Virus record (IMG/VR): IMGVR_UViG_3300021354_000039
Span: 1 to 20,220 of that record
Source of the DNA: a virus
Length of the DNA: 20,220 nt
Direction: 5' to 3' (one strand)
This document shows, one piece after another, positions 653-18,328 of the stretch. The notes beneath the pieces were generated by a model. The model saw nothing but the letters and a program-made list of their open reading frames with translations, made no database searches and was not told where the DNA came from. The position numbers were made by a program, and so were the translations under genes. Positions within the stretch are counted from its first letter, which is position 1. Each line of letters opens with the position of its first letter.

Positions 653-2909
653 CCAGTCGTCTATGAATATTGTTGGCAAAGTAGCCGATGTTGGTAGTAA
701 CCCTACATCTATTCCTGAAGATAAATCAGATATTTTATCGACCATGCGTCATCGTTTCCAGATGGCGATGTCTGCTTACTCCGAGTCCCGTGAGGACGAG
801 TTAGATGACTTACGCTTTATGGCTGGATCTCCTGACAACGGTTGGCAATGGCCCGCAGACGTTCTAGCTACGAGAGGCGCTGTTCAAGGACAGACTATCA
901 ACGCAAGACCTTGCCTTACTATCAATAAGCTGCCACAGCACGTCAAACAAGTAACAAACGAACAGCGTCAGAATCGACCTTCTGGAAAAGTGATCCCTGC
1001 GGACGATAAAGGCGACATTGAAGTAGCGGAAGTGTTTGAAGGTATGGTTCGCCATATCGAGTATATGTCTGACGCCGATGTGGTCTATGACACTGCTTGC
1101 GAAAACCAAGTAACGTATGGTGAAGGTTATTTCCGCATTTTGACCGAGTTTTGCTATGACAATAGCTTTGACCAAGACATTCGTCTAGGCCGTATTCGCA
1201 ACGCATTTAGCGTTTATATGGATCCGATGATCCAAGACCCTGCTGGTTGCGATGCTGAATGGTGTTTTATTAGCCAAGACATTGAAAAAGATGAATACGA
1301 GCGTCAGTTCCCTGATGCCGCGCCCATCACATCCATTATGTCCCAAGGTGTAGGTGATGATTCCCTAAGCCAATGGATTAACGAGAACACTATTCGTATT
1401 GTTGAGTATTTCTACTACACGCATACCCCAACTAAGCTCAATTTGTATCCAGGCAATCAATCGTTTTACAACGGCAGCCCTGAAGATAATCAAATGAAAG
1501 AGATGGGTTTAAAACCCATTAAAACTCGCACCGTTGATGTTAAAAAAGTCATGTGGATGAAATCCAATGGCTACGAAGTGTTACAAGAGCAAGAATGGGC
1601 AGGCAAATGGATACCTGTGATTCGTGTAATTGGTAATGAATTTGAAGTAGATGGTCGCATTTATGTGTCTGGCTTGGTTCGTAATGCCAAAGATGCACAA
1701 CGTATGTACAACTACTGGGTATCTCAAGAAGCCGAAATGCTTGCCTTGGCTCCAAAAGCACCGTTTATCGGTTATGGTGGTCAGTTTGAAGGCTATGAGA
1801 ACCAATGGAAAACTGCTAACACGACCAATTGGCCGTATTTGGAAGTTAATCCCGATGTAACTGATGGAATGGGCGCAACGCTGCCACTACCGCAGCGCGC
1901 CCCACCGCCTTTGGCACAAACTGGACTTATCCAAGCCAAAATGGGTGCAAGTGACGATATTAAGTCTACAACTGGTCAATATGACTCTAGTCTTGGACAA
2001 ACATCTAACGAGCGTTCAGGTAAAGCAATCCTTGCGCGTGAGCGTCAAGGCGACGTAGGTACTTTCCACTACGGCGATAACTTGACTAAAGCAATTCGCT
2101 TTGCTACCCGTCAGTTAATTGACCTGATTCCTAAGATTTACGACACCGAGCGTATTGCTCGTATCGTAGGTGTAGATGGTGAAGTGTCGATGGTCAAGTT
2201 AAACCCTGAACAGCCTGAGCCAGTTAAGAAAATTGTTGACCAACAAGGCATTGTGATTGAAAAAATCTACAATCCGAGCGTGGGTATATATGATGTCGTG
2301 GCTACTACAGGCCCAGGCTACATGACTAAGCGCCAAGAGGCTATGGAAGCGATGGCGCAGATTTTGCAAGGCAATCCTCAGTTGTGGGCAGTTGCTGGCG
2401 ATCTATTTGTTAAGAATATGGATTGGCCTGGCGCTCAAGAGATGGCTAAACGCTTAGAAAAGACAATTGATCCTAAGCTTATGTCTAGTACAGACGAAGA
2501 TCCAGCCTTGCAAGCTGCACAGCAGCAGATTCAAGCAATGGGTCAAGAAATGGAACAAATGCACACAATGCTTCAAAATGTTGGTCATTCGATTGAGATG
2601 CAGGACTTGGAGCGTAAAGACTTTGAAGCCCAAATTAAGCTATTTGATGCGGAAACTAAACGTTTATCGGCAGTTCAAGCTTCTATGTCACCTGAACAGA
2701 TCCAAGATATTGTCATGGGAACTGTGCATGGCATGATGGTGAATGGCGATCTTGTAACCGAAATGCAACGTGACACAAGCATGGATATGCAAGAAGAAGA
2801 TCAAAGAGAAGCGCAGATGGAACAACCGATGCAACCTCAAGGTCAACCAATGCCACCTCAAGGCGTTATGCCTGAACAAATGCCACCACAAGGGATGCCA
2901 CCACAATGA
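642..2909 (+). CDS. Portal protein, P22 type
   Basis: At 755 residues it is close to P22 gp1 (725). As the dodecameric vertex ring it would form the DNA entry and exit channel, bind the terminase during packaging and carry the gp4-type adaptor. Recognisable family stretches include ARPCLTINKLPQHVKQVTNE near residue 90, followed by QRQNRPSG, and TYGEGYFRI near residue 157. Residues about 625-680 are rich in Q, E and M and look like a coiled coil, where P22-like portals have their C-terminal barrel. The last 35 residues are a low-complexity run of M, Q and P. The ATG at 642 overlaps the HNH gene; there is no clear ribosome site, so coupling or a start at 663 (MNIVGKV) is possible. HNH genes lie on both sides. 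Confidence 0.93.
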   Translation: MGYDQSSMNIVGKVADVGSNPTSIPEDKSDILSTMRHRFQMAMSAYSESREDELDDLRFMAGSPDNGWQWPADVLATRGAVQGQTINARPCLTINKLPQHVKQVTNEQRQNRPSGKVIPADDKGDIEVAEVFEGMVRHIEYMSDADVVYDTACENQVTYGEGYFRILTEFCYDNSFDQDIRLGRIRNAFSVYMDPMIQDPAGCDAEWCFISQDIEKDEYERQFPDAAPITSIMSQGVGDDSLSQWINENTIRIVEYFYYTHTPTKLNLYPGNQSFYNGSPEDNQMKEMGLKPIKTRTVDVKKVMWMKSNGYEVLQEQEWAGKWIPVIRVIGNEFEVDGRIYVSGLVRNAKDAQRMYNYWVSQEAEMLALAPKAPFIGYGGQFEGYENQWKTANTTNWPYLEVNPDVTDGMGATLPLPQRAPPPLAQTGLIQAKMGASDDIKSTTGQYDSSLGQTSNERSGKAILARERQGDVGTFHYGDNLTKAIRFATRQLIDLIPKIYDTERIARIVGVDGEVSMVKLNPEQPEPVKKIVDQQGIVIEKIYNPSVGIYDVVATTGPGYMTKRQEAMEAMAQILQGNPQLWAVAGDLFVKNMDWPGAQEMAKRLEKTIDPKLMSSTDEDPALQAAQQQIQAMGQEMEQMHTMLQNVGHSIEMQDLERKDFEAQIKLFDAETKRLSAVQASMSPEQIQDIVMGTVHGMMVNGDLVTEMQRDTSMDMQEEDQREAQMEQPMQPQGQPMPPQGVMPEQMPPQGMPPQ

Positions 2910-3385
2910 TACAAAGTGAAGCTTTAACTTTATTTGCGTATCAAAACGGCAATTTATATTGGCGGGTAAAACCTTCTCGTGGGGTGCATATCGGCGATGA
3001 AGTAGGAACTATTTGTTCTACTGGACATCGTCGAGCTATGTATAAACGTAAACTTTATGCAGTACATAGATTAATTTGGCTTATGCACTATGGCGATATG
3101 CCTGCTGAAATAGATCATAAAGATACAAATAAGCTAAATAATAGGCTAGAAAATCTACGTATTGCAAAAGGTAAAAACCAACAAAATGTTGGCTTTAGAA
3201 AAGACAACACATCAAAAGCTAAAAATGTTTACTGGCATAAACCGACTATGCGTTGGAGTGTTATTGTCACTGCAAACAAGCAAAGGCATAATGTAGGCTA
3301 TTTTGACGATTTTGAACTCGCAGATTTAGTAGCTACTGAAGCTAGAGTTAAATACCATAAGGAGTTTGCTAATCATGGCCTATAA
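2906..3385 (+). CDS. HNH endonuclease with AP2-type DNA-binding domain
   Basis: This 159-residue protein has the classic phage HNH/AP2 layout. Residues 7-60 form the lead-in (LFAYQNGNLYWR, then VHRLIW with H54 and R55). The HNH core is EIDHKDTNKLNNRLENLR, with D70, H71, N79 and N83. From about residue 103 an AP2-like domain follows (VYWHKPTMRWSVIVT ... VGYFDDFELADLVA), which in relatives binds DNA. The ATG overlaps the portal stop as ATGA, so translation is probably coupled. Such genes commonly home into phage genomes. Its position directly after the portal, with another HNH gene directly before it, is notable. The two HNH proteins belong to different subfamilies and are not duplicates. Confidence 0.9.
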   Translation: MIQSEALTLFAYQNGNLYWRVKPSRGVHIGDEVGTICSTGHRRAMYKRKLYAVHRLIWLMHYGDMPAEIDHKDTNKLNNRLENLRIAKGKNQQNVGFRKDNTSKAKNVYWHKPTMRWSVIVTANKQRHNVGYFDDFELADLVATEARVKYHKEFANHGL

Positions 3386-7192: not shown

Positions 7193-7471
7193 ATGACAGT
7201 CAACTTATCTATCTTAGCTGGCGCTGGAGGTCAATTTTTTGACGATACAGGTATTCCTTTGTCTGGTGGATTGATATACACCAACGCCTCAAGAAATAAG
7301 CAAAGAAAAAGCAATGGGTTATTATCCGAATCCGATTTTTCGGTTTTACTCGATGTTAATTTAACCAATAAAGCCGCTTGGGAAACTTATAGGGCTAATA
7401 TAAGAGCAATTGCAATTAATCCAACTATCGACCCTACTTGGCCAATAAAGCCACCAGAGTTGTGGAGTTAA
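7193..7471 (+). CDS. Chimeric small protein: tailspike N-terminal anchor joined to a tail-chaperone-like end
   Basis: Residues 1-31 (MTVNLSILAGAGGQFFDDTG, IPLSGGLIYTN) match the N-terminus of the tailspike at 16043 almost position by position. After a short basic linker (RNKQRKSNG), residues about 42-92 change to LLSESDFSVLLDVNLTNKAAW, an ETYRANIRAI stretch and a WPIKPPE end. That is the pattern of the phage tail-assembly-chaperone-like family (LLxxSDWxxLxDxxL..aWxxYRxxLR..WPxxP). The 60-odd anchor residues that normally follow YTY, and any receptor-binding domain, are absent. This looks like a deletion or recombination remnant. Whether it is still functional is unknown. No clear ribosome site is seen; the start is one base after the upstream stop, so coupling is likely. 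Confidence 0.75.
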   Translation: MTVNLSILAGAGGQFFDDTGIPLSGGLIYTNASRNKQRKSNGLLSESDFSVLLDVNLTNKAAWETYRANIRAIAINPTIDPTWPIKPPELWS

Positions 7472-8348: not shown

Positions 8349-9563
8349 GTGTCTAATAGCTTATTAACGATCGACATGATCACACGCAAGGCACTCGAAA
8401 TTCTCGAGAATAACCTTGTACTCACACGCAACGTCAACCGTGCTTATGATGACTCCTTTGCTGTTGAAGGTGCCAAAATTGGTTCTACTTTGCGTATCCG
8501 TTTACCAGACCGCGCTTTGGTAACTGACGGCGCCGCCTTGCAAGTTCAAGACGACAACGAACAGTACACCACATTGGCTGTTTCTAGCCAAAAGCATATT
8601 GGCGTAAACTTCACTTCTGCTGAATTAACAATGCAGTTAGATGATTTCGCTGAACGTGTATTAAAACCTCGTATTAGCCAACTGGCGTCATCTATTGACA
8701 ATGATGTAGCTAACGCTTATCAGTCAATTTTTAACTCTGTTGGCACACCTGGTACAACTCCTTCAACTTCTTTGGTCTTGCTACAAGCTAACCAAAAGTT
8801 AAATGAGTATGCTTCCCCAATGAACAATCGTTACGCTACTGTTAACCCAGCAGCCAACGCAGGTTTAGTTGAAGGCATGAAAGGCTTTTTTAATCCAACT
8901 GGAACTATCAGCAGCCAATTTAAGTCTGGCATGATGGGTACTGGCGTATTGGGCTACGATGAAGTAAATATGAGTCAATCTATTGTGAGTTTTACAACAG
9001 GTTCCCGCGTAGTTGCTGATTCTGCGGCAATTAAAACCACCATTTCTGTTCAAGGCACTGCAAAGGTAACTATTAAAGCAGTTACTAGCGCTAAAACTTT
9101 GGCTGTTGGTGATGTATTTACTATTGCTGCCGTTTACTCTGTAAACCCACAAACCCGTCAATCTACAGGTTCATTGCAACAGTTTACCGTTACTGCATTG
9201 AATACTTCTGTAGCTACCGAGTTTGTTGATGTGGCTATCAGTCCTGCGCTTTACACACCTGCAAATGCTTTGGCAACTGTAGATGCGTTTCCTTTAGCTG
9301 ATGCTGTTGTAACTTATCTAGGCGCTGCTTCAACGGTATACCCACAAAACTTAGCATACCAAAAAGATGCTATCACTTTTGCTACCGCTGATTTGCTGTT
9401 ACCACAAGGTGTAGATATGGCTTCACGTCAAGTTCACAACGGAATTTCATTGCGTGTTGTACGTCAGTATGATATCAATAATGACCGTTTGCCTTGCCGT
9501 ATTGACGTTCTATACGGATATAGCGTAATTCGTCCACAAATGGCTTGCCGGATTTGGGGTTAA
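8349..9563 (+). CDS. Major capsid protein, P22 coat (gp5) type
   Basis: The 404-residue protein (P22 gp5 has 430) forms the icosahedral shell. The N-terminus (LLTIDMITRKALEILENNLV), the DDSFAVEGAKIGSTLRIRLP stretch near residue 35 and the NFTSAELTMQLDDFAERVLK stretch near 87 match P22-like coat proteins. The region of about 220-330 is beta-rich, with TIKAVTSAKTLAVGDVFTI, and sits where P22 coat has its inserted telokin-like domain. The end PCRIDVLYGYSVIRPQMACR is the family C-terminus. The start is GTG at 8349 behind AAAGGAA (8337-8343), a five-base spacer. The preceding gene is the scaffold. A phage-encoded GroES nearby would fit, since P22 coat variants depend on the chaperonin. Confidence 0.93.
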   Translation: MSNSLLTIDMITRKALEILENNLVLTRNVNRAYDDSFAVEGAKIGSTLRIRLPDRALVTDGAALQVQDDNEQYTTLAVSSQKHIGVNFTSAELTMQLDDFAERVLKPRISQLASSIDNDVANAYQSIFNSVGTPGTTPSTSLVLLQANQKLNEYASPMNNRYATVNPAANAGLVEGMKGFFNPTGTISSQFKSGMMGTGVLGYDEVNMSQSIVSFTTGSRVVADSAAIKTTISVQGTAKVTIKAVTSAKTLAVGDVFTIAAVYSVNPQTRQSTGSLQQFTVTALNTSVATEFVDVAISPALYTPANALATVDAFPLADAVVTYLGAASTVYPQNLAYQKDAITFATADLLLPQGVDMASRQVHNGISLRVVRQYDINNDRLPCRIDVLYGYSVIRPQMACRIWG

Positions 9564-9566
9564 ACC

Positions 9567-9881
9567 ATGAGCTACGTCATTGGTAATATACCCAAGCAAT
9601 CGGTTATCAGTGTAACGCTGTCGCCTGCTTTAATTGCCGCAAACACTTCTGCTGAACAAACATTCACAGTAAATGGGCTATTAACAGGGGATCATGTATC
9701 AGTTAACAAACCTACAGCCCAAGCGGGATTAGCGATTGTTGGCAACCGCGTGTCGGCAGCAAATACATTGGCAATCACATTTGGCAACTTCACTGGTTCT
9801 AATATCACTCCAACTGCAACCCAAGTCTACACAGTTTTGGTTACACGGCCTGATAGAACTATCAGCGATGGCAACATTTAA
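9567..9881 (+). CDS. Small head protein candidate after the coat gene
   Basis: The 104-residue protein is a predicted all-beta domain: SVTLSPALIAANTSAEQTFT, then GLLTGDHVSVNKPTAQAGLA, then an end rich in Thr and Val (TPTATQVYTVLVTRP). This pattern is widespread directly after P22-like and other coat genes in environmental phages. A decoration or head-fibre role is plausible but not shown by any motif. It starts three bases after the coat stop and has no clear ribosome site (ggggttaaacc upstream), so coupling to coat translation is likely. Confidence 0.7.
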   Translation: MSYVIGNIPKQSVISVTLSPALIAANTSAEQTFTVNGLLTGDHVSVNKPTAQAGLAIVGNRVSAANTLAITFGNFTGSNITPTATQVYTVLVTRPDRTISDGNI

Positions 9882-9900: not shown

Positions 9901-10176
9901 ATGGCACTACCTAAAGTTGGTGATGGCGAACAAGTTGGTGATGGCAATACGGGTGAAGTACTGAATGTAGGTCGTTCAGGACAATCACTTCAAGTTGGCG
10001 GAACCGCAGCTACAACGCTTGGTTTTTATGGCGCAACACCTGTAGTACAGCGCGCTACTGCAACAACCCATACCACCACTAATGTGGTTACTTCAGCATC
10101 TTTTGGCACACTTCAAGTGGCTCAAATGCAAGAAGTAATGAATACATTGGCTGGTTTAGGCCTCTGGGCGTCGTAA
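9901..10176 (+). CDS. Small conserved phage structural-type protein
   Basis: A 91-residue protein of unknown function with a Gly/Val-rich front that repeats VGDGxxG (VGDGEQVGDGNTGEVLNVG) and a middle TLGFYGATPVVQRATA, seen by recall in many phage genomes next to coat or fibre genes. The end is a helix (QMQEVMNTLAGLGLW). The motif GFYGxTPVxQ suggests a virion surface or tail-fibre-tip family, but I cannot assign it. AAGGAAAT at 9888-9895 is the ribosome site. The stop TAA shares its last base with the methyltransferase ATG. Confidence 0.68.
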   Translation: MALPKVGDGEQVGDGNTGEVLNVGRSGQSLQVGGTAATTLGFYGATPVVQRATATTHTTTNVVTSASFGTLQVAQMQEVMNTLAGLGLWAS

Positions 10177-10685
10177 TGGATCGGGGTTCGTTGTTGCACG
10201 TTGGGTGTGGCAACGAATCCCTACCTGTTTGGATGGATGGTTTTACCGAAACACGATTAGACATTAATAAAGCTAGTTCACCTGATATCGTAGCGTCTAT
10301 GCTAGATATGGGCGATATTGGCGAATACGATGTAATCTATTGCAGCCATGCTTTAGAACATTTATCCCCTTTTGAAGTCCCTGTAGCAATAAGCGAATTT
10401 TTACGTCTATTAAAGCCTGGTGGATATGCAATGGTTTTTGTCCCCGATTTAGAAGATGTTAAAGCAACCGAAGATGTTGTATTGGAATCGCCAAGTGGCC
10501 CAATCACCGGTTTGGATATGATCTATGGGTATGCTAAAGCATTACGTGAAGGCAATCATTATATGGCTCATAAGTGTGGCTTTGTTAGTGATACGCTTAA
10601 AAAAGCGTTTATTAATGGTGGTTTTTCTACTGTTAAAACGCAGCGAATTGTACCTTTTAATCTTATGGCAATAGCGATCAAATGA
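10176..10685 (+). CDS. Class I SAM-dependent methyltransferase
   Basis: The 169-residue protein has the order of a small Methyltransf_11/UbiE-like fold: motif I LLHVGCGN (6-13), the acidic end of strand 2 RLDIN (27-31), the D/E-rich DMGDIGEYDVIYCSHALEHL (44-63) with the HALEHL signature, and LLKPGGYAMVFVPDL (78-92). The substrate is unknown; HALEHL proteins in phages often pair with glycosyltransferases and may modify a sugar or a protein. No DNA-methylase motif IV (DPPY/NPPY) is present. The ATG overlaps the preceding stop by one base, and its stop overlaps the glycosyltransferase start (ATGA), so the two enzymes are translated together. Confidence 0.85.
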   Translation: MDRGSLLHVGCGNESLPVWMDGFTETRLDINKASSPDIVASMLDMGDIGEYDVIYCSHALEHLSPFEVPVAISEFLRLLKPGGYAMVFVPDLEDVKATEDVVLESPSGPITGLDMIYGYAKALREGNHYMAHKCGFVSDTLKKAFINGGFSTVKTQRIVPFNLMAIAIK

Positions 10686-11359
10686 AAGTAGTCCTGTGCG
10701 TACCCACGCTGACAAGACCCTATCAGCAAACATTAAATAGTATTGCAGGCTCAATTGCCGCTTTAGATAGCGCAAATATTGAACACTTTATGGTATCCGA
10801 AGTTGGATGCCCCTATATTAGCGCTGCTCGGTCAACCATGCTTCGTAAGGCGCTAGACGCAAAAGCAGATGTAATTGTCTTTATTGACCACGACGTTAGT
10901 TGGAAACCTCAAGATTTAGTAACCCTTATCCAAACTGAGGGCGATGTAGTAGCAGGCTTATATCGGTTTAAAAAAAATGAAGAACTTTATATGGGTGTAA
11001 TCTGCGATGGTGAAAATGCTTTGCCAATCACTAGACCTGATGGCTCTATTGCCGCTACCCGTGTCCCGGCTGGATTTTTAAAGATAACTAAAGAAGCGGT
11101 TAATCGTTTTATGACCGCTTACCCTGACCTAATGTACGGCCCCAAATACGCGCCGTCCATTGATTTATTCCATCATGGCGCACACAAAGGCGCTTGGTGG
11201 GGTGAAGATTATGCCTTTAGCCGTAATTGGATTGACTGCGGGGGTGAAATATGGGTTGCGCCAAATCTTGATTTAAGCCATCATTCAAGTGAAAAAGAAT
11301 ATAAAGGTAACTTTCATCAATTTTTAAGGCAACAACCAGGCGGAGATTTACATATATGA
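10682..11359 (+). CDS. Glycosyltransferase, GT-A fold (GT2-like)
   Basis: The 225-residue protein begins with a nucleotide-binding strand (KVVLCVPTLTRP, 2-13), has an AARSTML motif (48-54) where GT2 enzymes carry AxARN, and then ADVIVFIDHDVSW (62-74), whose DHD (69-71) stands for the metal-binding DxD. VPAGFLKITKEAV and WWGEDYAFSRNW, which resembles the GEDxxFC acceptor motif, follow. It should transfer a sugar from a nucleotide-sugar, in the host cytoplasm. The acceptor is unknown: virion protein, host glycan or DNA base are all possible. Two-gene coupling with the methyltransferase (ATGA) suggests one pathway, for example a methylated sugar cap. The next gene overlaps by four bases. Confidence 0.82.
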   Translation: MKVVLCVPTLTRPYQQTLNSIAGSIAALDSANIEHFMVSEVGCPYISAARSTMLRKALDAKADVIVFIDHDVSWKPQDLVTLIQTEGDVVAGLYRFKKNEELYMGVICDGENALPITRPDGSIAATRVPAGFLKITKEAVNRFMTAYPDLMYGPKYAPSIDLFHHGAHKGAWWGEDYAFSRNWIDCGGEIWVAPNLDLSHHSSEKEYKGNFHQFLRQQPGGDLHI

Positions 11360-11541
11360 TTATTTATCTTAAGCATCCTACACATGGCGTTAAAGTAGCC
11401 ACAATGGAAGCAGAAGCAGAATATGATGAACAAAATGGTTGGATACGTTATACTTTGGATACGCCTTCTGTGGCAGTAATCGAAGATGCGGCTCCTGTAA
11501 ATAAACTGGATGTTACTCAACGCCGCCGTAGAACTGCATAG
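11356..11541 (+). CDS. Small conserved phage protein of unknown function, 61 aa
   Basis: The start MIIYLKHPTHGVKVATMEAE and the block EYDEQNGWIRYT are seen by recall in many phages between coat and head-tail adaptor genes. A basic C-terminus (QRRRRTA) follows a variable linker. No known function; its position just before the gp4-like adaptor suggests a head-completion role, but that is inference. The ATG overlaps the glycosyltransferase stop by four bases. Confidence 0.72.
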   Translation: MIIYLKHPTHGVKVATMEAEAEYDEQNGWIRYTLDTPSVAVIEDAAPVNKLDVTQRRRRTA

Positions 11542-11555
11542 TAAAGGATTAATTA

Positions 11556-12272
11556 ATGACCACCTATACTGCTGGGGATCAAATTAATGGCGCATTGCGC
11601 CTAATTGGGATGCTTGCTGAAGGCGAAACCCCATCAGCTTCTACATCTCAAGACGCGTTGACGGCTTTGAATCAAATGATTGATTCATGGAATACTGAGC
11701 GCCTGTCTGTCTTTTCTACCCAAGATCAAGTTTTTACTTGGACGCCTAATCAAATTCATAGAACGCTTGGCCCAACAGGTGATTTTGTAGGTAATCGTCC
11801 TATTTTGCTTGACGATTCTACTTATTTTAAAGACCCTACTAATGGAATTTCGTTTGGTATCAAAATCATTAACCAACAGCAATACGATGGTATTGCGGTT
11901 AAAACGGTAACTTCTACTTATCCACAAGTAATGTGGATTAATATGGATTACCCAAATATTGATATGTATGTATACCCAGTGCCTACAAAAGCATTGGAGT
12001 GGCATTTTATTTCGGTTACTGAGTTAGACCAGCCAGCCACACTTGCAACTAATCTAGCTTTCCCGCCAGGGTATTTAAGAGCGTTTAAATACAATTTGGC
12101 TTGTGAAATTGCTAACGAATTTGGTGTTGAGCCGCCGCCTAATGTGGCTCGTATTGCGATGACTTCTAAGCGTAATTTGAAACGTATTAACAATCCTGAT
12201 GATATTATGTCGTTACCATACAGCATTGTTGCTACACGCCAACGCTTTAACATCTTTGCAGGTAATTATTAA
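11556..12272 (+). CDS. Head-tail adaptor / tail accessory factor, P22 gp4 type
   Basis: The 238-residue protein would bind below the portal and start the tail. The N-terminal part DALTALNQMIDSWNTERL (28-45) and QVFTWTPNQIHRTLGPTGDF (near 60) are typical of gp4-type adaptors; a middle YPQVMWINMDYPNIDMYVYP and an end helix LACEIANEFGVEPP also fit. P22 gp4 has 166 residues, so this copy has extra length in the middle, as is common in environmental phages. AAAGGATTAA (11543-11552) is the ribosome site. In P22 the order is gp4, gp10, gp26; here a fibre-like gene separates gp4 and gp10. P22 gp4 can hydrolyse peptidoglycan; no such motif is evident here. Confidence 0.87.
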   Translation: MTTYTAGDQINGALRLIGMLAEGETPSASTSQDALTALNQMIDSWNTERLSVFSTQDQVFTWTPNQIHRTLGPTGDFVGNRPILLDDSTYFKDPTNGISFGIKIINQQQYDGIAVKTVTSTYPQVMWINMDYPNIDMYVYPVPTKALEWHFISVTELDQPATLATNLAFPPGYLRAFKYNLACEIANEFGVEPPPNVARIAMTSKRNLKRINNPDDIMSLPYSIVATRQRFNIFAGNY

Positions 12273-15695: not shown

Positions 15696-16046
15696 ATGAC
15701 AAATACATATAAATGGTCAATTAAAAACATTTTTTGTTACCCTAATGTAGAGGGTAAAGAAAATGTTATATTTAATGTTCAATATAGCGTTTCCGCAACG
15801 GACGGCGTAAACAGTTTTTCCGCAGAAAAATCGCAAGAACTTGAATTAAATTCAAGCAAAAACTTTACGCCTTTTGACCAACTTACAGAAGAACAAGTCC
15901 TTGATTGGGTAAAAGCCGCCGTAGGCGACAATAATATTAATCAAATTCAATCTAGTCTTGACGAAATCGTGACTAAACTATCTAATCCACCTATAATCAA
16001 CCCAACATTACCTTGGGTCAAGAACCCTAGCCAGGAGCCTTTATGA
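15696..16046 (+). CDS. Small tail-associated protein, DUF7936-like, copy B
   Basis: The 116-residue protein resembles the product of 5902-6225: NTYKW at the start, VQYSVSATDG in the middle, FDQLTEEQVLDWVKAAVG, then LSNPP and LPW near the end. It follows a fibre gene just as copy A does. AAAAGTTAAAAA (15684-15695) is only a poor ribosome site. The stop overlaps the tailspike start (ATGA), so it is coupled to that gene, which fits a fibre/tailspike partner role. The function is unknown; identity to copy A is low (perhaps a quarter to a third by eye). Confidence 0.75.
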   Translation: MTNTYKWSIKNIFCYPNVEGKENVIFNVQYSVSATDGVNSFSAEKSQELELNSSKNFTPFDQLTEEQVLDWVKAAVGDNNINQIQSSLDEIVTKLSNPPIINPTLPWVKNPSQEPL

Positions 16047-17728
16047 CTGTTAATTTATCCCTTTTTGCTGGTGCGGGGTCACAATTCTTTACCGATGACG
16101 GTGTGCCTTTAAGCGGCGGTTTGCTTTATACCTACGTTGCTGGATCTACAACACCACTAACTACTTACACTTCTAATGTTGGTGTTGTTACTAATAGCAA
16201 CCCTATTGTTTTGGACTCGGCGGGCCGTGTTCCTTATGAAATATGGCTATTAGAAGGCACCGTAGCTAAGTTTATTCTTCAAGACGCGCAAGCAGTGCAA
16301 ATCGGTTCTTGGGACAATATTGCTGGCGCAAACGACCTTACCACTACAAATGCTGCTATTACTGCTGTTTACGCTAATTTAGCCAATACAACTGACGCTG
16401 CCAAAGGCGATGCTTTAATTGGTTTTAGACAATCTAATAACTCAGGTCTTATTGCTAATGCTGTGGCTAAAACAGTCCATCAAAAATTTCAAGAATTGGT
16501 ATCTGTAAAAGATTTTGGTGCAATAGGTGATGGCACAACCAATGATTACAACGCTATTCAAAACGCTATTTATTACGCTCAGGATAATAACGGTTGCGTA
16601 TATTTCCCTTCTGGTAACTATAAAGTTAATACAGGCTTAGTATTTACTGAAATTTGCGGTATTGATTGCGCTAGCGGTGCAACAATTACAGGTAAAGACA
16701 ATACGATCGACGTTGTTACGCTCAATCCTTCAGGCGTTAACTACACTAATCAAGTTCTTAATATCCCCGCTATTTATACGGGCAAAATAGGCTTACATCT
16801 TAAAGGCGTTACTTTAGCCAATTTAACAATTTCATCTATTACTAATTGCGTAGATGGTTTAGTATTATCAATAGATGATAACAATAAGGTTTGTGCTGAC
16901 AACATTGTTAACTTTACAGTTATTAGCCAATGTTCTGCTGCGGGGCTTAAATTTAATTATTTAGCCACTACAACTAGCGGTACATTGATGCAAGGTAATG
17001 AAATTTACGGTAATTTTATTACCGGCAGTAAATATTGCGTTCATTTTTATGACGTTAATAATGGTGCATTGCAAAATTTACCTTGGGACGATACTTTAAT
17101 TGATATTTTTGCTTTAGATAACGCTGTTCCCGATTCTATTGTTCTCTACGGCGAGCCATCATTCCCACCTGCTAGAACCACTTGGAACCATAAAGGATTT
17201 TTTGGCGGTGCTACAGATGCGTTAATTAAAGGCAGTTGCAACGCAAATATTTTTAATATCGCTTTGGCAACGGCGGCGCCGTATGACCAAATGCAATTAG
17301 CTGGCACTGCCAATTTAATATTTAATAATTCTGGCGGTTGGGAAGGTACAGTAGGTGTTACTACAGCAATTCCTTTGACTACCGCTGTAAATACACAATC
17401 TACTTTTAATAGCGGAAATCCAGTATTTTCTAATCGTTTTTACGCTAGTATGACCGTTCCTACTGGGGGTTGGGTAGCAGGCGATAACGCTATATTTTAC
17501 TTTTACAGCCCTTTAATAACGCAGTACGGCCCTCCAGTTATGGTTGAACCAAGATGGAACGTACCTATGATTTGTATGTACGCTGTTGAAAATAATACGC
17601 CTGGCGTTGGTGGCCCAAGTAGTGAAGCTCCATACCCGTTCCAAGGTGCGGTAAAGTTCCAAGCCATTGGCGTTGTACCTGAAGGCACATATAACTTTTT
17701 TATTACTGTTCACGGCGTTCCACATTAA
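16043..17728 (+). CDS. Tailspike with pectate-lyase-type beta-helix
   Basis: The 561-residue protein has an N-terminal anchor (1-95) with AGSQFFTDDGVPLSGGLLYT, AGSTTPLTTYT, NPIVLDSAGRVPYEIWL and GSWDNIAG, a domain common to tailspikes of P22-like and other podoviruses. A helical neck (about 96-150) leads to VSVKDFGAIGDGTTND (153-168), the standard start of a Pectate_lyase_3 beta-helix, with the usual FPSGNYKV at about 188. The beta-helix (about 190-400) is followed by a beta-rich C-terminal module ending EGTYNFFITVHGVPH. It probably binds and cleaves host surface polysaccharide; catalytic residues cannot be placed by eye. It starts within the preceding stop (ATGA). The same anchor start recurs in the 92-residue gene at 7193. 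Confidence 0.9.
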   Translation: MTVNLSLFAGAGSQFFTDDGVPLSGGLLYTYVAGSTTPLTTYTSNVGVVTNSNPIVLDSAGRVPYEIWLLEGTVAKFILQDAQAVQIGSWDNIAGANDLTTTNAAITAVYANLANTTDAAKGDALIGFRQSNNSGLIANAVAKTVHQKFQELVSVKDFGAIGDGTTNDYNAIQNAIYYAQDNNGCVYFPSGNYKVNTGLVFTEICGIDCASGATITGKDNTIDVVTLNPSGVNYTNQVLNIPAIYTGKIGLHLKGVTLANLTISSITNCVDGLVLSIDDNNKVCADNIVNFTVISQCSAAGLKFNYLATTTSGTLMQGNEIYGNFITGSKYCVHFYDVNNGALQNLPWDDTLIDIFALDNAVPDSIVLYGEPSFPPARTTWNHKGFFGGATDALIKGSCNANIFNIALATAAPYDQMQLAGTANLIFNNSGGWEGTVGVTTAIPLTTAVNTQSTFNSGNPVFSNRFYASMTVPTGGWVAGDNAIFYFYSPLITQYGPPVMVEPRWNVPMICMYAVENNTPGVGGPSSEAPYPFQGAVKFQAIGVVPEGTYNFFITVHGVPH

Positions 17729-17837: not shown

Positions 17838-17888
17838 ATGCAATTAGCCGCCAATACCGAACAAAAAGGCGCCGTCGCATGGCTATAG
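17838..17888 (+). CDS. 16-residue upstream frame overlapping the acetyltransferase start
   Basis: MQLAANTEQKGAVAWL starts one base after the upstream TAA and stops at TAG 17886-17888, ten bases into the acetyltransferase gene. It has no ribosome site of its own apart from coupling. It could be a leader that couples translation into the acetyltransferase, or the scar of a lost gene. Low certainty. Confidence 0.25.
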   Translation: MQLAANTEQKGAVAWL

Positions 17889-18328
17889 AGTATAAAGTCG
17901 ATGATTGGCTTGCTAATCTACCTGCGTTAAAAGAAGTGATTACTTATCATTATGATGAATTAACGGCTTCTAAAGCGTATCCGCTTGACCCTGTATGGGA
18001 AAACTATGAAAATTTGTGGAATAGTAAAGGGTTACATTTCATCACTTGTAAAGATGACGGCGTATTAGTTGGGTATATTATTTTTTTTATTGGGCCACAT
18101 TTGCATTACAGAACTTGTTTAACCGCTTTTGAGGATATTTACTTCTTGAAAAAAGAGTACCGAAAAGGTAGAGTAGGGTTAAAAATGTTTCAATTTGCTG
18201 AAAAGCATTTAAAAAATGAAGGCGTTAACCGTGTAATTTATAACACTAAAATAAAATCAGATAACAGTAGCTTATTTGAATATTTAGGTTACACATTAGT
18301 TGACAAAGTATTTACTAAATTGCTGTAA
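17879..18328 (+). CDS. GNAT-family N-acetyltransferase
   Basis: The 149-residue protein has the plan of a phage GNAT family: helices at LPALKEVITYHYDELTASKA (14-33), DGVLVGYIIFFIGPHLHY (60-77) and the acetyl-CoA motif A DIYFLKKEYRKGRVGLKMF (86-104) with RKGRVG in place of the QxxGxG/A consensus, then a helix and LFEYLGYTLVDKVFTKLL (132-149). It would transfer acetyl from acetyl-CoA to an amine; the target is unknown. It lies between the tailspike and the ejection genes; phage GNATs in this position might modify a virion or host protein. AAAGG at 17865-17869 precedes the ATG at 17879 by nine bases. The gap 18329-18361 that follows holds only the next ribosome site. Confidence 0.85.
   Translation: MAIEYKVDDWLANLPALKEVITYHYDELTASKAYPLDPVWENYENLWNSKGLHFITCKDDGVLVGYIIFFIGPHLHYRTCLTAFEDIYFLKKEYRKGRVGLKMFQFAEKHLKNEGVNRVIYNTKIKSDNSSLFEYLGYTLVDKVFTKLL

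Follow-up and report, generated by a model that had tools for sequence, protein, structure and literature searches.

Gene content of the coat-to-gp4 interval

The window, a complete IMG/VR contig of 20,220 bases, carries a P22-like phage head operon with a portal gene (642-2909; PF16510, E 2.4e-170), a scaffold gene and a gene for a P22-like major coat protein of 404 aa (8349..9563, + strand; PF11651, E 1.4e-38; phrog_283, E 5.6e-74). The first ORF after the coat encodes 104 aa (9567-9881) and is followed, all on the + strand, by the gene of a small GFYG protein of 91 aa (9901..10176), a class I SAM-dependent methyltransferase (MT) of 169 aa (10176..10685), a GT-A glycosyltransferase (GT) of 225 aa (10682..11359), a 61-aa ORF (o61; 11356..11541) and a gp4-like head-tail adaptor (11556..12272; phrog_12985, E 1.4e-45; phrog_637, head-tail adaptor, E 3.1e-10), which forms the right border of the cassette slot. 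Neighbouring genes overlap: the stop codon of the 91-aa ORF (TAA, 10174-10176) overlaps the ATG of the MT at 10176 by one base, the MT stop and GT start share an ATGA at 10682-10685, and the GT stop shares another with the start of the 61-aa ORF at 11356-11359. As such, the MT and GT genes, their place in a P22-like head operon and all three junctions are as a preliminary description of this DNA had proposed. Its placement of the two genes between a coat-adjacent protein and the gp4-like adaptor was right as to the slot, although the 91-aa and 61-aa ORFs also intervene. The 61-aa ORF is found between coat and gp4 both with and without the cassette, and the 104-aa ORF sits where many relatives have the first of two GFYG proteins. 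The coat-to-gp4 interval is hypervariable, with different ORFs, some of 500-590 aa, beside close coats (e.g. loci L103, L107 and L141). Elsewhere in the operon, the portal gene is flanked by two ORFs (155-652 and 2906-3385) that have the look of HNH-type endonucleases when judged by eye; homing endonucleases often flank genes in this manner.

Relatives among viral contigs were found for both the GT (240, of which 80 were kept for locus analysis) and the MT (11), so that neither reading frame is due to chance. The GT belongs by profile to phrog_1574 (E 2.1e-16), a PHROG that carries no function, and scores 17.2 bits against Glycos_transf_2, below the cut-off of 23.3. It has a DxD motif, D69-H-D71 (10886-10894), and an xED motif, G174-E175-D176 (ED at 11204-11209), with D69, D71, E175 and D176 invariant in 38 relatives, as well as a C-terminal histidine, either H200 or H201 being invariant depending on the alignment (38 and 37 relatives). 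Together these residues make up the GT-A core features as defined in PMC7185993. The DHD had been described as standing in place of DxD, but it is an ordinary DxD in which x is histidine, and the idea of an unusual motif was dropped. According to the same source, xED holds the catalytic aspartate of inverting enzymes, although its conservation is no proof of inversion, as one retaining family keeps the xED aspartate (PMC7185993). The AlphaFold2 model of the GT (pLDDT 94.2, pTM 0.91) adopts a GT-A fold whose nearest neighbour is A197 of the archaeal virus STIV (2c0n; Z 16.5 over 163 residues, 2.5 A, 19% identity), also ranked first by Foldseek, followed by the GT domain of the lysyl hydroxylase LH3 (Z 16.0), Mnn9 (14.7), mimivirus R699 (14.4) and procollagen galactosyltransferase 1 (ColGalT1; 14.3). 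Profile searches gave weak matches to A197 (E 0.016) and to a procollagen galactosyltransferase (E 0.08). By motif and predicted fold, which agree, the GT is thus a GT-A enzyme, as the preliminary description had held, and glycosyl transfer is its predicted activity.

The MT scores above the curated cut-offs of two Pfam families, Methyltransf_23 (38.7 against 27 bits) and Methyltransf_11 (33.2 against 21.2 bits). For the comparison of loci, we distinguish GT1, the type of the window's GT, from GT2, a second group about 25-29% identical, which a scan for the DNA pattern of GFYG brought to light and which was then searched with its own GT. An MT lies near the GT in 40 of the 80 GT1 loci versus none of the 80 GT2 loci. 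The MT is thus an optional accessory of the GT and no obligatory partner, and the earlier view of MT and GT as a unit was given up; the invariant companion of the GT is instead the GFYG protein. There is nevertheless a hint that the two steps belong together, in that the GT of locus L091 (MW202691, 6956-8233), 31% identical to that of the window, continues into a fused C-terminal region that weakly resembles a methyltransferase (Methyltransf_4, E 0.0035, below the cut-off). Long C-terminal extensions, of no clear family, are likewise present in the GTs of L237, L259 and L265.

The GFYG protein as constant companion of the glycosyltransferase

The 91-aa protein belongs to a family of small proteins of about 70-110 aa whose N-terminus varies and whose C-terminal tail bears the motif GFYGxTP. 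We divide it into an N-terminal segment (residues 1-40), a putative anchor, and a GFYG tail domain (residues 41-91; 10021..10173, + strand) that contains three candidate modified or recognised residues, namely R51 (10051-10053), T60 (10078-10080) and W89 (10165-10167). In GT1-linked tails (n=86) the arginine is kept in 99%, a Ser/Thr at the T60 column in 99% and the tryptophan in 94%. A tblastn search with the 91-aa protein against phages returned one record, a genome scan found one relative, on a short MAG contig, and a PDB profile search with the family gave one match at E 0.22. AlphaFold gave a poor monomer model for the 91-aa protein (pLDDT 63.2, one helix). Among 64 members, one each matched the head-fiber PHROGs phrog_6994 (E 7.7e-4) and phrog_4366 (E 0.011), both weakly, and no PHROG head-fibre match was found for the window's own protein. 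The motif also caps long ORFs away from coat and GT, where it lies 33-74 residues from the end in 22 of 24 cases; a scan of eight such ORFs gave two clear tail or tail-fibre PHROGs, one mixture of tail and structural matches, one structural match, one unnamed PHROG and three ORFs without a match.

The association of the GFYG protein with the GT was assessed on loci anchored on the GT. The GT2 loci that came from the pattern scan itself (120 stretches, 118 loci read) had been chosen for GFYG and were left out. Where at least 1.5 kb of upstream sequence was available, a GFYG ORF adjoins the GT in 57/57 GT1 and 68/68 GT2 loci. Over all GT-anchored loci it stands beside the GT in 75 of 80 GT1 and 79 of 80 GT2 cases, the other six being short of upstream sequence. 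Every locus with at least 2.5 kb ahead of the GT has a P22-type coat gene in that upstream stretch (47/47 GT1, 50/50 GT2). The commonest GT1 arrangement is coat-GFYG-GFYG-GT-o61-gp4 (19/80), next to coat-GFYG-GFYG-MT-GT-o61-gp4 (14/80) and coat-GFYG-GT-GFYG-MT-o61-gp4 (9/80). The GT was found with the coat in every locus long enough to tell, and its pairing with the MT is not constant. The late, virion-linked role that had been suggested for it is supported by the linkage to virion genes, a linkage of the kind known from mycobacteriophage virion glycosylation.

The reverse association is looser. None of 80 loci found through their coat (75-81% identical to that of the window, among the matches listed) has a GT, and this list contains none of the GT-bearing contigs, such as L002 with a coat identity of 87%, so that it tells us that the cassette can be absent in close relatives and gives no frequency of absence. 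By the common rule, a GFYG ORF lies downstream of the coat in two of these 80 (L102 and L170, among the matches listed); L113 has one as well, cut at the contig end, and the match in L152 looks like a chance reading frame. Of the small coat-linked GFYG ORFs in the pattern scan, 20/80 are without a GT, one of which, L246, is a cut contig with an Arg/Trp tail. Hence, on contigs of sufficient length, these GTs were not seen without a GFYG ORF, while GFYG ORFs sometimes occur without a GT, which indicates that the GT needs the small protein and not the reverse. Such an asymmetry is what one would predict for an enzyme and its substrate. Among more distant phage GTs, with identities of about 24-32% to the GT1 or GT2 query, a GFYG ORF was found nearby in 0/6.

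Covariation of tail, N-terminus, enzyme and coat

The tails of the GFYG proteins differ sharply with the class of the neighbouring GT. Counted over distinct combinations of GT and tails, arginine follows glutamine (QR) in 129/129 GT1-linked copies and a C-terminal tryptophan is present in 123/129, as compared with 1/93 and 0/93 of the GT2-linked copies, respectively, the single GT2 arginine being that of L278, which lacks the tryptophan; the patterns behind these counts were widened after the rows had been seen, to take in QRT and AVGLW. Rows without copies (six GT1, four GT2) are not counted here: all six GT1 contigs, and likewise L353, start at the GT or shortly ahead of it, and L311, L244 and L245 (GT2) were left out because their GFYG ORF is too long, too distant or off-pattern. 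L091, which scores as GT1 only as a training member of the profile (31% identity), was kept apart in these counts and treated as GT2 in the coat tree. Four N-terminal types are each seen with both tail types and always with the matching GT class, apart from L091 with its uncertain class, L278 (GT2 with Arg) and a small number of copies with a cut-off or missing GT. Additional copies occur outside the usual positions: L253 has an extra GFYG copy of Arg/Trp type (10805-11068) 7.5 kb from its GT, L285 and L292 have similar copies on contigs with no GT in view, and L083, L085, L086, L214, L260 and L304 each have one copy that has the arginine (QRT) and has lost the tryptophan.

This matching is seen independently of the coat. 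On a quick tree with long branches, built from 93 coats after near-copies were dropped and with 30 of the 43 rows of class 'none' sampled, the cassette class (GT1, GT2 or none) changes at least 20 times, and changes between GT1 and GT2 number at least 10. On the starred branches of this tree, tail and GT change together in 7/7 independent pairs (sign test, p 0.0156). In loci where the coat is only 32-39% identical to that of the window, the small ORF still reaches 66-85% and the GT 71-74% (coat/small ORF/GT of 32/66/71 in L003, 39/85/73 in L013 and 36/72/74 in L008).

Partial rank correlations were calculated on 89 of 178 loci after near-copies were dropped, with label permutations that ignore shared ancestry. 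The tail correlates with the GT given the coat (r 0.65) and hardly with the coat given the GT (0.06), and the N-terminus tracks both (0.40 and 0.50). Within GT1 alone (n=41) the N-terminus goes mainly with the coat (0.64, versus 0.20 with the GT); within GT2 (n=48) it goes with both (0.43 with the coat, 0.47 with the GT). The 24 two-copy loci, 22 of them GT1 and two GT2, separate the two halves most clearly: given the coat, the tails track the GT in the near copy (0.77) and in the second copy (0.65), their correlations with the coat given the GT being -0.16 and -0.05, and the N-termini track the coat (0.67 and 0.66) and not the GT (-0.01 and -0.15). Because the GT2 N-terminus also follows the GT, the double dissociation is clean only in the two-copy loci and nearly so in GT1. 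As a control in a smaller set of 36 loci, the adaptor gave 0.73 with the coat and 0.32 with the GT. The tail end of the near copy lies physically beside the GT or MT, so that linked transfer explains part of the signal; that of the second copy is hardly explained by physical linkage, although gene conversion between copies is possible. The simplest account of an N-terminus that tracks the coat and a tail that tracks the GT is that the former fits the coat and the latter is the substrate of the GT.

A putative swappable virion-glycosylation cassette

Taken together, the patterns of linkage and covariation lead us to propose, with reasonable though far from complete confidence, that the region constitutes a swappable virion-glycosylation cassette, its GT adding sugar to the tail of a small fibre anchored in the capsid. 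The change of the tip of a fibre-like protein along with the enzyme suggests a phage that puts a sugar coat on its own particle. In this model, the GFYG protein (9901-10176) would be produced along with the head proteins; the N-terminal segment would fit the phage's own coat, and the C-terminal tail would be displayed. The GT-A enzyme (10682-11359) would then glycosylate this tail with a host nucleotide-sugar, the candidate sites being the near-invariant Ser/Thr (T60), Arg51 or Trp89. Alternatively, the arginine and tryptophan may serve as a recognition mark that separates GT1 from GT2 acceptors. The MT (10176-10685), when present, would probably O-methylate the sugar or the same tail. A bolder version, which we regard as distinctly unlikely, is that the GFYG tail of about 50 residues is by itself a specific GT substrate, a portable tag exchanged together with its enzyme, and that GT1 would attach a rare N-arginyl or C-tryptophanyl sugar that is then O-methylated by the MT.

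The preliminary description had suggested modification of virion proteins, with capsid or fibre as examples. A GT that, alone or with the MT, glycosylates the coat or a large tail protein, with the GFYG protein an unrelated neighbour travelling by linkage, would account for the constant proximity of the coat (47/47 and 50/50 loci) and of the near GFYG tail, which physically adjoins the GT or MT, and it would have a precedent in the mycobacteriophage GTs that modify capsid and tail-tube subunits (PMC11600133). We nonetheless consider it unlikely, and not the first place to look for the acceptor, since the GT class switches at least 10 times on the coat tree while the GT tracks the GFYG tails independently of the coat. 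Linkage would also have to explain the second, non-adjacent copy, whose tail goes with the GT (0.65) as its N-terminus goes with the coat (0.66), and the Arg/Trp copy that L253 carries 7.5 kb away from its GT. The matching of tail and GT would also fit a lectin-glycan pair, in which the GT would act late in infection on a glycan of the host surface, masking the receptor, and the GFYG tail would be the tip that matches this glycan; serotype-changing phage GTs are indeed known (PMC12619734). Such a role is very unlikely in our view, as every sufficiently long GT-anchored locus has the GT within the head operon, between coat and gp4, and the cassette shows no partner gene for an acceptor lipid. 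Several of its nearest folds, moreover, belong to enzymes whose substrates are protein side chains (LH3, ColGalT1), although an acceptor cannot be proved from a fold.

DNA-modifying GTs of phages have likewise been described (Pyle 2024, cited in PMC12619734), and one distant relative, gp05 of HTVC027P (about 24% identity), is encoded between primase and helicase. This is an exception to the virion-linked position: close relatives stand beside coat genes rather than genes of DNA modification or replication, with a coat neighbour in 97/97 of those with enough sequence, and the early-gene placement that had been named as speaking against a virion role was thus not seen in them. The invariant partner of the GT is furthermore a small protein of structural type and no nucleotide-modifying enzyme, and a part in DNA hypermodification appears highly improbable.

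A virion-glycosylation cassette of the kind proposed here has parallels in several known systems. In mycobacteriophages of clusters O and F1, phage GTs with an O-methyltransferase gene beside them modify virion proteins (Freeman 2023, as cited in PMC11600133, PMC12619734 and PMC12363180), and those of cluster O are tandem GTs downstream of an O-methyltransferase gene that act on capsid and tail-tube proteins (PMC11600133). There the major capsid and tail-tube subunits are reported as acceptors, whereas here we infer a dedicated small acceptor, the GFYG protein, which, unlike those, is exchanged together with its GT, in P22-like podoviruses. STIV A197, the best fold match of the window's GT, is likewise a minimal viral GT-A enzyme; it is described as essential, with the major capsid protein B345 as its proposed target (PMC10551542). 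It differs in belonging to an archaeal virus and in that the account cited describes no MT or GFYG partner, its acceptor being likewise putative. The proposed architecture of the GFYG protein agrees with that of the head fibres phi29 gp8.5 and phi-crAss001 gp21/gp29, in which a short N-terminal segment anchors in the capsid (residues 1-38 of gp21 in a hexon pocket; PMC10172136) and the rest projects, and the weak matches of single family members to two head-fiber PHROGs are in line with this likeness. GFYG proteins are much smaller, however, their homology to such fibres and their trimeric state are putative, and the sources used here mention no GT partner for the fibres.

To our knowledge, many phage GTs are without a known target. 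Phage virion glycosylation as such is already known, but a dedicated, swappable acceptor is unexpected; in a literature search of titles and abstract openings, with subscription papers mostly outside its reach, we found no GT paired with a small head-fibre-like protein. In the present case the sequence data are by themselves enough to point to one target gene, whose product has one half that matches the coat and one that matches the enzyme and falls into two classes with opposite tail residues, and one branch of PHROG 1574 can now be linked to GFYG proteins. The GFYG protein is hence the first protein to test, and the question of the target could be addressed with two co-expressed small genes. 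If the model is true, the cassette would represent a swappable surface-glycan display unit on the heads of environmental phages and, in addition, a candidate minimal glycosylation tag.

Two further features of the window deserve mention. A GNAT acetyltransferase gene (17879-18328; PF00583, E 1.3e-9; phrog_1249, E 3.5e-15) follows the tailspike-like gene and may encode a third modifying enzyme; it was not seen in the relatives that were compared for coat, small ORF and GT identity. In addition, a 92-aa ORF (7193-7471) resembles the N-terminus of the 561-aa tailspike-like protein (16043-17728), with which it shares the pattern MTVNLS..AGAG.QFF.D.G.PLSGGL.Y, and is perhaps a duplicated head-binding segment or a remnant.
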